This document shows, piece by piece, positions 29,963 to 42,793 of a stretch of 64,000 bases of DNA. Origin of the DNA: an uncultured Pelagibacteraceae bacterium (GTDB taxonomy: Bacteria > Pseudomonadota > Alphaproteobacteria > Pelagibacterales > Pelagibacteraceae); assembly GCA_902563575.1 (NCBI GenBank), contig CACEXV010000001.1:248001-312000 (forward strand), read 5' to 3'. The notes under the pieces were generated by a model. The model had not been told where the DNA came from and searched no databases. It saw only the letters and a list, made by a program, of their open reading frames with translations. The position numbers were made by a program, and so were the translations under genes. Numbering within the stretch: position 1 is the stretch's first letter; each line of letters opens with the position of its first letter.

Positions 29963-29978
29963 GTTTTTTCAATATAGA

Positions 29979-30016
29979 CAATTAACCAGTGAGATGGTAA
30001 CACACAGCAATTAACC
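29979..30016 (+). repeat. Paired 9-base direct repeat upstream of rpsU
   Basis: CAATTAACC occurs at 29979-29987 and again at 30008-30016, 29 bases apart start to start, the second copy abutting the GGAGG ribosome-binding site of rpsU. A regulatory role in the rpsU leader is possible, since ribosomal protein leaders often carry repeated protein-binding elements. It may also be chance. Confidence 0.3.
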
Positions 30017-30026
30017 GGAGGTTTTT

Positions 30027-30221
30027 ATTAAGATAGAAGTTAAAGATAACAATGTTGAGCAAGCAATTCGTGTTTTAAAAAGAAAATTACAAAAGGAAGG
30101 ATTTTTTAAAGTTATAAAAATAAAAAGTGTATATGAAAAACCTTCTGAGAGAAAAAAAAGAATTAAAACAGAGAATATCAAAAGAGTAAAAAAGCTGCAG
30201 AGACTAAGAAATAGATACTAA
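30027..30221 (+). CDS. rpsU: 30S ribosomal protein S21, with ATT start codon
   Basis: A small-subunit protein near the anti-Shine-Dalgarno region of 16S rRNA. The 64-residue frame reads KIEVKDNNVEQAIRVLKRKL then QKEGFFKVIK and KPSERKKRIK, a clear S21. The frame between the upstream TAA (30012) and the TAA at 30221 contains no ATG, GTG or TTG at all. A strong GGAGG (30017-30021) lies exactly five bases before ATT at 30027, and that codon matches the family N-terminus, so AUU initiation is inferred. A base-call error is the main alternative. Confidence 0.9.
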   Translation: MKIEVKDNNVEQAIRVLKRKLQKEGFFKVIKIKSVYEKPSERKKRIKTENIKRVKKLQRLRNRY

Positions 30222-30237
30222 AATTGCAGGAGACAAA

Positions 30238-30441
30238 ATGCCATCAGGAAAAGTTAAGTGGTTTGACCAAAAAAAAGGTTACGGTTTTATAAAAGAACAA
30301 GATACAGATAGAGACATTTTTTTACATATTTCTGCTTTGGAAAAGTCAAAACTCCGTATTTTAAAAGAAGACCAGAAATTGATTTTTGACATTAAAAAAG
30401 ATAAAAATAGACTTCAGGCAATAAACTTAAAAAAAACTTAA
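30238..30441 (+). CDS. Cold-shock family protein
   Basis: A 67-residue single cold-shock domain with both RNA-binding motifs: GKVKWFDQKKGYGFIKEQ (RNP1 is KGYGFI) and DIFLHIS (RNP2). It binds single-stranded RNA/DNA and acts as a chaperone or antiterminator. A GCAGGAG sequence precedes the ATG. It follows rpsU by 16 bases and leads to the initiator tRNA five bases after its stop. Confidence 0.93.
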   Translation: MPSGKVKWFDQKKGYGFIKEQDTDRDIFLHISALEKSKLRILKEDQKLIFDIKKDKNRLQAINLKKT

Positions 30442-30446
30442 TTTAT

Positions 30447-30523
30447 CGCGGGGTGGAGCAGCCTGGTAGCTCGCAAGGCTCATAACCTTGAGGTCGGCGG
30501 TTCAAATCCGTCCCCCGCAACCA
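30447..30523 (+). tRNA. Initiator tRNA-fMet, anticodon CAT
   Basis: A 77-base cloverleaf begins CGCGGGG and ends CCCCGCA ACCA with encoded CCA. The unpaired C1-A72 at the top of the acceptor stem and A11-U24 in the D stem are bacterial initiator marks. The anticodon loop is CTCATAA. The anticodon stem is CAAGG/CCTTG, so only the two pairs next to the loop are G-C; the third is A-T instead of the standard G-C. Confidence 0.96.
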
Positions 30524-34950: not shown

Positions 34951-35068
34951 AGCCTGGCAACGTCCTACTCTCCCGCGTCTTAAGACGAAGTACCATTGGC
35001 GCTGAAGAACTTAACTACCGAGTTCGAAATGGTATCGGGTGTAACCCCTTCGCAATAATCACCAGGCG
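34951..35068 (-). rRNA. rrf: 5S ribosomal RNA
   Basis: On the minus strand the sequence begins GCCTGG(T) near 35067 and ends with complementary GCCAGGC near 34952. Between them are the conserved CCGATACCATTTCGAACTCGG block and the loop E/helix IV region GGTACTTCGTCTTAAGACGCG followed by GGAGAGTAGGACGTTGCC. The length of about 118 bases is normal. There is no 23S or 16S gene immediately upstream; instead come tRNA-Val and the polysaccharide island. Confidence 0.95.
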
Positions 35069-40636: not shown

Positions 40637-42592
40637 TTAAAAAGATCTTTTAAGTCCTAATTTAAAAGACCTACTTGGCTGTGAATAATGAAGTGCCGTA
40701 TTATATTCTTCGTCAAAGATATTGATTAATTTAAAATAAATATCGTATCCAGGTAAATAATCAAAATCTAATGTTAAATGATTAACTATATAAGCATCTA
40801 ATTTTACATCAGCATAACTACTACCGTGCATTGGGGAATTAAAATTACCATAATCTCTAGCGTTTGATGCAGCTATAGTTTGTAAGTTTAAAGCCAAGTT
40901 CTTATCTGGAAATTTAAAATAAGTATTTAAACCAATCATATGTCTTGGCACTCTTACCATTCGACTGTCAGTAAAAGCTCCACCTCCTGTTCCTCCAGTG
41001 TTTCCATCTTTATTTAATGCATCATCCATATCAGCTCCGTCATAAGTCCTTGATAAAGTATAATTTAAATTAAAATTTAATTTTGAGCTGTAATTATAAT
41101 TAGCCCCTAACTCAAAGCCTTCAGATTTTATAAGCCCAGGTTGATTATGATAATATGAATTGGTGTCAGAATTACTATCTTTCCATCCATCTAGGGTATC
41201 TTCATATTTATGATTAAAATAAGTTAAATCAAAACTAACCTTATCATTAAATATTTTTTTTTCTAAACCAATATCGTAGCTTCTGCCGGTTTCTGCTGTC
41301 ATTTTTCCTTTGAATTCGCTAGACGTCCAAACTTGATAGTTCTCATACAACGATGGAAACCTGAAGCTAGTTCCATAAGTTCCTTTATATTTTGTTTTTT
41401 TATTATCAGAAAGATAGGCAAAAGATACTCTGTGACTATCTTCATTGCCAGCCTCATTATGTTCGTCAAATCTCATTCCAACAGTCGTATATAAGTTTTC
41501 AGACAATCTACTTTGTAAATCGTAATAAAAAGATTTTATTTCATTACCTCTATATAGAGACTTTTTATACTTCATTTCATCGTTTTCATATTCAACACCA
41601 AACGATAAATTATTATCTAAGTTAATTTTGTAATTACCGCTATAATATATTGCGTCCCTAAAACCTAGATACTCTGCTTCAGATTTACCAGATCCCCACT
41701 CGCTAAATGCATCATATGTCCTATCATTGTAGCTATGTACAAGTTTTAATTGTTGATCAAATTTTTTTGAAGGACTGTGAATTATGCCAAATGAAGTGTT
41801 CCATTCTTTATTCCAATTTTGACTGTTATCATCTGTATCAGTGCTAAATTGACTATCTAAAGAATCATAGTTTAAAAAAGAGTAGATGAATCTAGAGTTA
41901 GCACTTAACTTAATTCGATCATTTAATTTGTATCCAAAGTTTCCAACAAAAGTATCATTATGATAAGCATCTGTTTCTTTATTGTCAGTCATTGCAGATT
42001 CACCGTCAGTCTGGAACTTTTCATAACCTAGCCAGAAATCTTTGGTTTCATCTGCGCCAGATATAGACCCAGATAAATTGAAAGTTTGTTCAGAACCAGT
42101 AACTAAATCTAAGTTTTTTTGAAATCCTTTTTTTCCTTTTTTAGTTGTTATATTTACTGTGCCTCCCATTGCACCACTTCCATATATTGAGCTTTGATTT
42201 CCTTTTAGAATTTCTATTCTTGAAACAGAACTTTTCATTAGATCATCAAAATAGTAGTCATTACTCACAGTAGATGGGTCTGATTGTTTTATTCCATCAA
42301 CGTAAATTGTTGTATACCGTTTGGGCAAACCTCTGATTTGAATACCAGATTGAGTTCCCGCTCCTCCACTTTGATAAGATGATACCCCCGGTGAACTATA
42401 ATTAAGTATATTATGCAAGAAAGTTTCTGTAGACTTGTCCAAATCGCTTTCGGTGAAGACCTTGACAGAACTACCAACTGTCGAGATAGACTGGGGGGTC
42501 TTGCTGGGTGCAATTACAATAACAGGTACATCTTCCGCAAAAGCAGATTGTGCGAAATTAAAGTATAAAAATAATATTAGTATTATTTTCAT
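40637..42592 (-). CDS. btuB: TonB-dependent vitamin B12 receptor (BtuB-like)
   Basis: An outer-membrane barrel receptor, 651 residues from the ATG at 42592. A signal peptide (MKIILILFLYFNFAQSAFA) is followed by a TonB-box-like VPVIVIAPSK, a plug domain (IQIRGLPKRYTTIYVDGIKQSD, GSGAMGGTVNITTK) and a barrel ending in phenylalanine (LGLKRSF). The frame extends to 42664, but that runs into the cobalamin riboswitch, and AAAGGAG precedes the chosen ATG. The riboswitch gives strong support for cobalamin as the cargo. Confidence 0.92.
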   Translation of the reverse strand: MKIILILFLYFNFAQSAFAEDVPVIVIAPSKTPQSISTVGSSVKVFTESDLDKSTETFLHNILNYSSPGVSSYQSGGAGTQSGIQIRGLPKRYTTIYVDGIKQSDPSTVSNDYYFDDLMKSSVSRIEILKGNQSSIYGSGAMGGTVNITTKKGKKGFQKNLDLVTGSEQTFNLSGSISGADETKDFWLGYEKFQTDGESAMTDNKETDAYHNDTFVGNFGYKLNDRIKLSANSRFIYSFLNYDSLDSQFSTDTDDNSQNWNKEWNTSFGIIHSPSKKFDQQLKLVHSYNDRTYDAFSEWGSGKSEAEYLGFRDAIYYSGNYKINLDNNLSFGVEYENDEMKYKKSLYRGNEIKSFYYDLQSRLSENLYTTVGMRFDEHNEAGNEDSHRVSFAYLSDNKKTKYKGTYGTSFRFPSLYENYQVWTSSEFKGKMTAETGRSYDIGLEKKIFNDKVSFDLTYFNHKYEDTLDGWKDSNSDTNSYYHNQPGLIKSEGFELGANYNYSSKLNFNLNYTLSRTYDGADMDDALNKDGNTGGTGGGAFTDSRMVRVPRHMIGLNTYFKFPDKNLALNLQTIAASNARDYGNFNSPMHGSSYADVKLDAYIVNHLTLDFDYLPGYDIYFKLINIFDEEYNTALHYSQPSRSFKLGLKRSF

Positions 42593-42625
42593 TAGCAAAG
42601 GCTCCTTTTTTTTGCCACTGCTAAT
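42591..42625 (-). promoter_or_regulatory. Hairpin enclosing the btuB Shine-Dalgarno site
   Basis: ATTAGCA (42625-42619, minus strand) is complementary to TGCTAAT (42597-42591) and a second short GGC/GCC pairing lies inside. The loop and inner stem contain the AAGGAG ribosome-binding site, and the lower stem covers the A and T of the btuB start. No T-run follows. This looks like the expression platform of the upstream riboswitch working on translation. Confidence 0.55.
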
Positions 42626-42639
42626 CAAATTAGAAGAAT

Positions 42640-42745
42640 TAGACTTTCCCTGGCCTTCATTCAACAGCGGGCTATACTGGGTGGCGCTCCGACTTTACGG
42701 TTGCAGGTACAGCCAGTGAATTACACACTGATTTCCCACCATGCA
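42640..42745 (-). ncRNA. Cobalamin riboswitch controlling btuB
   Basis: On the minus strand GGTGGGAA (42740-42733) opens the aptamer and pairs with CGCCACC (42692-42686). Between them are ATTCACTGG, the CCTGCAACCGTAAAG junction loop and TCGGAG. CCCGCTGTTGAATGAAGGCC follows. This order (GGTGGGAA ... CCTGCAAC.GT ... GGAGCGCCACC) matches the cobalamin riboswitch consensus. It ends about 50 bases before the btuB ATG. Binding of cobalamin should lower btuB expression. Confidence 0.9.
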
Positions 42746-42793
42746 TTTCAGTACAAATTTTTTATATTAAATTAAAATATCTGTGTCAATTAC

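Follow-up and report, generated by a model that had tools for sequence, protein, structure and literature searches.

IF3 represses initiation at non-canonical start codons, and infC exploits this by starting with ATT in Escherichia coli and ATC in Streptomyces (accessible text of PMC5472188) and with AUA in Staphylococcus aureus (accessible text of PMC13009471). Conserved non-canonical starts that follow a strong ribosome-binding site have also been described, in the same parts of these two papers, for Streptomyces sigR, whose GTC start is repressed by IF3 and found in 32 of 34 genomes, and for S. aureus cvfC1 (AUU) and ccpN (AUA), in which the start follows an extended Shine-Dalgarno (SD) sequence and supports less translation than AUG. 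In Flavobacterium johnsoniae, autoregulation of rpsU, encoding ribosomal protein bS21 (S21), involves an exceptionally strong SD on a short leader in an SD-poor genome; bS21 joins late in assembly, its Tyr54, a hallmark of Bacteroidia S21, holds the 16S tail, and ribosomes lacking bS21 favour the strong-SD rpsU mRNA, with an interplay with IF3 (accessible part of PMC9976891).

The rpsU gene of SAR11 bacteria described here resembles each of these systems in part. Like infC, it is a gene of the initiation machinery with an AUH start (AUU, AUC or AUA) behind an SD, but its product is S21, so that any feedback would have to pass through the ribosome instead of acting via the fidelity factor. Like rpsU of F. 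johnsoniae, it has an outstanding SD and a short leader, but for F. johnsoniae only an extended SD is described, which is stronger, whereas SAR11 rpsU adds a non-canonical start. In contrast to S21, sigR encodes a sigma factor of an actinobacterium and starts with GTC and not AUH, and cvfC1 and ccpN encode a small protein of unknown function and a repressor, respectively, neither of them ribosomal and both from another phylum. In the open-licence papers searched, including the accessible parts of PMC8710568, PMC10783764, PMC2704228, PMC9723584 and PMC6375957, we found no earlier report of a non-AUG rpsU start or of a class-wide rarity of AUG at rpsU.

The window, a stretch of 64,000 nucleotides corresponding to positions 248001-312000 of contig 1 of a 970-kb Pelagibacteraceae assembly (~84% complete), contains rpmE (L31), TrcR, rpsU, a cold-shock-domain gene (csp) and tRNA-Met in this order, with the following features at and downstream of rpsU.

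29975-30003, plus strand: promoter-like element, consisting of TAGACA (29975-29980), a 17-nt spacer ending in TGG (29995-29997) and TAACAC (29998-30003)
30012-30014, plus strand: in-frame TAA that closes the rpsU frame upstream of the start, read from the sequence
30017-30021, plus strand: Shine-Dalgarno sequence GGAGG, 5 nt (five T) ahead of the start codon, -10.6 kcal/mol against the genome's own 16S tail
30027-30029, plus strand: ATT start codon of rpsU
30027-30221, plus strand: rpsU, ribosomal protein bS21, 64 codons and stop (PF01165, TIGR00030)
30238-30441, plus strand: csp, cold-shock-domain gene downstream of rpsU (PF00313, 6.3e-22), with an ATG start
30447-30523, plus strand: tRNA-Met gene (ARAGORN) with initiator marks (C1 x A72, loop CUCAUAA), in which A-U replaces the first of the three anticodon-stem G-C pairs

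The S21 frame contains no ATG, GTG or TTG between its two stops (30012-30221), and 64 codons separate the ATT from the terminal TAA at 30219-30221. Profile searches identified the product as S21 (PF01165, 1.8e-14, 53.6 bits, above the cut-off of 27; TIGR00030, 2.6e-14, 52.8 bits, above the cut-off of 28.95), and an ORF lister restricted to canonical starts and a 40-aa minimum listed nothing in this frame. Direct reading of the sequence bore out the claims of an earlier note on this DNA that the frame lacks canonical start codons and that GGAGG lies five bases before the ATT; its expectation that gene finders ignoring ATT would miss the gene also held, in that such tools would miss, shorten or lengthen it.

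Comparison with relatives showed that this codon is conserved. Among 119 loci from the window's genus (39) and from named relatives (80), two sets that partly hold the same organisms, the codon before KIEV or KIDV was ATT in 114, ATA in three, ATC in two and ATG in none. The named relatives (81-92% S21 identity) are titled Pelagibacteraceae, Pelagibacterales or Pelagibacter (SAR11), with one Rhodospirillaceae; the genus search gave no rpsU match in 35 of 169 genomes, yet in just one of 14 good-quality genomes. Eleven further genera of the family contributed 30 loci, with ATT in 28 and ATG in two. With 30 sister-family loci and 80 more, the total came to 259, one of which (L148) has stops inside rpsU, and dropping copies identical over the gene and 20 nt upstream left 230 unique loci. 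In the window's family the 192 unique loci start with ATT (181), ATG (five), ATC (three), ATA (two) and ACG (one, at L297, where ATT is the preceding codon), and in the sister family 37 of the 38 start with ATA and one with ATC, ahead of a GTN codon. Thus, a start other than AUG, GUG or UUG occupies the fixed site in 225 of the 230 unique loci (ATT, ATA, ATC or ACG), and five have ATG at the same codon.

Codon choice and position both set this site apart. Where family loci carry an isoleucine codon at the start, it is ATT in 181 of 186, compared to 374 of the 844 internal isoleucine codons of the same genes (chi-square p 7e-39, ignoring shared ancestry), and in the sister family ATA makes up 37 of 38 starts but only 10 of 139 internal isoleucine codons. 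Because this bias differs from the internal one in both families, the start codon behaves unlike an ordinary internal isoleucine. Of the 187 non-ATG family loci, 184 have 4-6 nt between start and SD and three have 9 nt; the spacing is 8 nt in all 38 sister-family loci. All 192 family loci have T before and A after the start codon, a pattern not seen in the sister family; such flanking bases could allow additional pairs with the initiator tRNA. In the five ATG genes, ATG occupies exactly the position of the ATT and the encoded peptide is the same, MKIEV, which fixes the start position by homology and agrees with the proposal of the earlier note that ATT at 30027 aligns with the family start. 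The comparison of relatives' rpsU 5' regions called for in that note accordingly found conservation of ATT and not a uniform ATG.

Two other explanations of the ATT can be weighed against these data. It is very improbable that translation begins farther upstream at a canonical codon, for instance the in-frame TTG that overlaps the SD in many relatives: 62 of the 225 non-ATG loci do have an upstream in-frame canonical codon, 53 of them a TTG with its final G as the first base of the SD, but the window and 163 of the 225 have none, the TTG is a product of the T-run and the SD itself, and the ATG of the five ATG genes sits at the ATT codon. Of the remaining unique non-ATG genes, 154 have canonical codons only internally and nine have no in-frame canonical codon anywhere. 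Less credible still is that the ATT reflects gene decay or an error of sequencing or assembly; in-frame stops inside rpsU in three relatives (G047, G111 and G202) point to assembly error or decay in single genomes, but 181 unique family loci share this codon and the protein is conserved, which refutes this explanation for the start. Judged by this conservation, the AUU start is neither a sequencing error nor peculiar to the window genome, ATT at 30027 is almost certainly the real start codon, and a non-AUG start has very probably been kept at rpsU by selection. A short upstream ATG frame (from 29994) was considered as a leader peptide or a source of frameshifting and rejected, as its frame and length vary among relatives (by eye); this ATG also falls in the conserved -10-like element.

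Presence of the non-canonical start correlated with that of a strong SD. GGAGG, AGGAG or GGGGG was found upstream in 225 of 225 non-ATG loci and 0 of 5 ATG loci (Fisher 1.9e-10, ignoring ancestry), with a median pairing energy of -10.6 kcal/mol for ATT loci (range -13.4 to -6.9) compared to +0.4 for ATG loci. All five ATG genomes are from a single genus; in an rpoB tree of 28 genomes they occupy at least three places (at least three label changes), and in a short rpsU tree of 55 genes the ATG genes are loosely grouped and compatible with a single origin (p-AU 0.33). The paired switch of SD and AUU may have occurred once, with later exchange, or several times.

The anti-SD core of the window genome is intact, since its 16S tail reads GGATTACCTCCTTT. 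None of 64 window genes of at least 90 aa has an SD as strong as the -10.6 kcal/mol of rpsU (best, -7.3), even with the best alternative start; among the small genes (up to 73 aa) outside this set, csp has -7.4 kcal/mol. The median of the 64 genes (-0.4) is no better than that of mock positions (-1.4), one of which reaches -10.4 kcal/mol by chance; some SDs exist, as nine of the 64 genes compared to two mock positions are at least as strong as -6 kcal/mol. The window is therefore SD-poor with one exceptional SD at rpsU, as described for Flavobacterium rpsU. The rpsU SD is weaker than the < -13 kcal/mol reported for Bacteroidia, for which the energy tables and tail length differ from ours, and residue 54 of the window S21 is Val by plain numbering, without alignment to the Flavobacterium protein. 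The 16S gene was sought in ten genomes, two of which gave only pieces with N runs in which the tail was unreadable. Beside the anti-SD, the tail, read at L433 and other 16S loci, is GGATTACCTCC in the window genome as well as in six further genomes of the family, and GGATCACCTCC in one genome of the same genus (G085) and in the sister family; our initial anti-SD patterns matched nothing in the window genome because its 16S tail is GGATTACCTCC and not GGATCACCTCC. The 5S rRNA gene (34952-35066) adjoins tRNA-Val; on this contig, the 16S gene is ~60 kb away.

The neighbours of rpsU start with ATG in every scorable copy (L31, 126/126; TrcR, 115/115; Csp, 119/119), in counts that were not freed of copies and with three L31 and 22 TrcR set aside for an unaligned N-terminus. 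On these alignments, the non-canonical start is special to rpsU among the genes looked at. Farther along the window, an AdoCbl-II (B12) riboswitch (42674-42754, minus strand) lies upstream of a 675-aa ORF (40637-42664).

An initiator tRNA-Met gene follows rpsU in 138 of the 143 family loci that extend far enough, and none was found within 700 nt of rpsU in 30 sister-family loci. The two genes are >200 nt apart in the window's genus, with csp between them, and <200 nt apart in 23 of 25 other-genus loci. C1 x A72 was present in 140 of the 142 downstream tRNA-Met genes, the other two not being read, and the anticodon stem ended AGG/CCU in 138 of 138, with A29-U41 instead of G-C. The three G-C pairs of this stem are highly conserved in all domains, and their selection is linked to IF3 (accessible part of the review PMC7949028).

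A search of 31 genomes gave 29 infC loci, 12 from the sister family and 17 from the window's genus. All 12 sister-family loci (L366, L377-L380, L384-L387, L389, L390 and L392) have GGAG, six bases and then an apparent ATA (11) or ATC (one) start, making autocontrol of IF3 through an AUH start likely in this family; in the window's genus, infC starts with GTG directly after TAA in 17 of 17. The parallel with infC drawn in the earlier note gains some weight in this way, through the sister family, where infC itself is apparently ATA- or ATC-started.

Outside the order, rpsU starts were read in 130 alphaproteobacterial loci, from 130 of the 276 such genomes with a match and all among the better-scoring listed matches. 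With starts assigned by alignment and a canonical codon at the family start position preferred, so that some GTG and TTG could be wrong, we found GTG in 67, TTG in 26, ATG in 21, ATC in 12, ATA in two and CTG in one, with one locus (L490) lacking an assignable start. Five of these (four ATC, one ATA) were chosen on account of AUH in relatives and are tallied separately; the 125 untargeted loci include 21 ATG and nine ATC or ATA. The 14 ATC or ATA loci span six family labels (f14, f29, f45, f87, f98 and f127), and in f14, f29, f87 and f98 all three members read have AUC or AUA. A+T pressure is not the cause of these AUH starts, since 13 of the 14 loci have 50-71% G+C. Outside the class, ATG was found in 30 of 30 loci, these being the 30 best-scoring of 197 matching genomes in a sample that included class members as well. 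Genome-wide, a proteogenomic count in one alphaproteobacterium gave 94% ATG, 5% GTG and 1% TTG starts (accessible part of PMC3305630). From these assignments, AUG is uncommon at rpsU across the sampled Alphaproteobacteria, with Pelagibacterales as the extreme.

A search of viral contigs found no relative. Annotated phage S21 matched in 11 records, of which four were looked at: HTVC008M and Aegir have ATG, Mosig has TTG and Melnitz-3 was assigned no start. Because pelagiphage S21 (L270-L272) starts with ATG or TTG and not AUH, a phage-borne S21 gene would not be subject to any start-codon control acting on the host gene.

Upstream of rpsU, TRGAC and TGnTA are present in 192 of 192 unique family loci, with a 17-nt spacer in 191, suggesting that this conserved element acts as a promoter; a sigma-70 consensus scan does not list it. 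The start codon lies 24-37 nt after the start of the second (-10-like) hexamer, which would give a leader of roughly 15-25 nt. No structured leader was found: the region from -30 to +40 folded with a median of only -4.6 kcal/mol (40 loci), and inverted repeats were trivial. Because a short leader has little room for structure, control probably acts in initiation itself.

We propose that rpsU of Pelagibacterales is translated from AUU (AUA in the sister family), which would be read by the initiator tRNA at a site combining a strong SD on a short leader with a codon discriminated against by IF3. IF3 would lower initiation at AUU, and sensitivity of the rpsU start to IF3 is likely. The best translators of rpsU would be 30S subunits in which the anti-SD is free and start-codon checking is relaxed, chiefly those at a late stage of assembly that have yet to receive S21. 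When S21 is scarce, S21-less subunits would pile up and more S21 would be made; when S21 is plentiful, replete subunits with full checking would make less. Feedback through the start codon and the SD would in this way keep S21 matched to 30S subunits.

That the AUU and SD form part of an S21 feedback loop on 30S assembly is a plausible but tentative reading. Conservation of the codon across the order, the all-or-none association of the SD with non-ATG starts, selection for a particular isoleucine codon and an SD stronger than that of any of the 64 window genes count in its favour, as do the ATG starts of the neighbours, the apparent ATA and ATC starts of sister-family infC, a leader too short for structure, and the scarcity of AUG at rpsU in the class with AUC or AUA fixed in further families. 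Counting against it, rpsU evidently works without either element in the five ATG genomes, S21 has Val at residue 54, the SD is weaker than reported for Bacteroidia, SDs are not absent from the window and chance alone produced a mock position of nearly equal strength. In addition, starts in the class are mostly GTG and TTG, which IF3 tolerates, and simple compensation of strength would also account for the link between SD and AUU. The last point leads to the main rival, in which AUU merely holds down S21 synthesis from a strong SD and promoter, without feedback, and SD with AUU or no SD with AUG reach the same level. This static tuning explains the joint absence of SD and AUU in the five ATG genomes, accounts for the SD-AUG exchange equally well and is nearly as likely as feedback. 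The AUU start of E. coli pcnB reportedly holds synthesis down. Yield-lowering non-canonical starts behind extended SDs are known in S. aureus (accessible text of PMC13009471). Static tuning leaves unexplained, however, why one costly solution has been kept in 225 of 230 unique loci while AUH recurs in other families, and why such a start falls on S21.

A wider reading, which we consider unlikely, would make the rpsU start codon a sensor of 30S maturity, with AUH read mainly by S21-less, IF3-relaxed subunits. In Pelagibacteraceae, together with the initiator tRNA of weakened anticodon stem (A29-U41) at the same locus, it would belong to a small set of initiation-fidelity genes self-controlled by start-codon choice, and this control would take a wider form in Alphaproteobacteria, as avoidance of AUG at rpsU.

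In sum, gene finders limited to ATG, GTG and TTG lose or mis-start an rpsU gene throughout one order, and a ribosomal protein gene joins the few genes known to have a conserved non-canonical start, in very abundant ocean bacteria. Whether start-codon fidelity senses the composition of the 30S subunit becomes directly testable, and the findings suggest that SAR11 bacteria regulate the assembly of their own ribosomes through a weak start codon.
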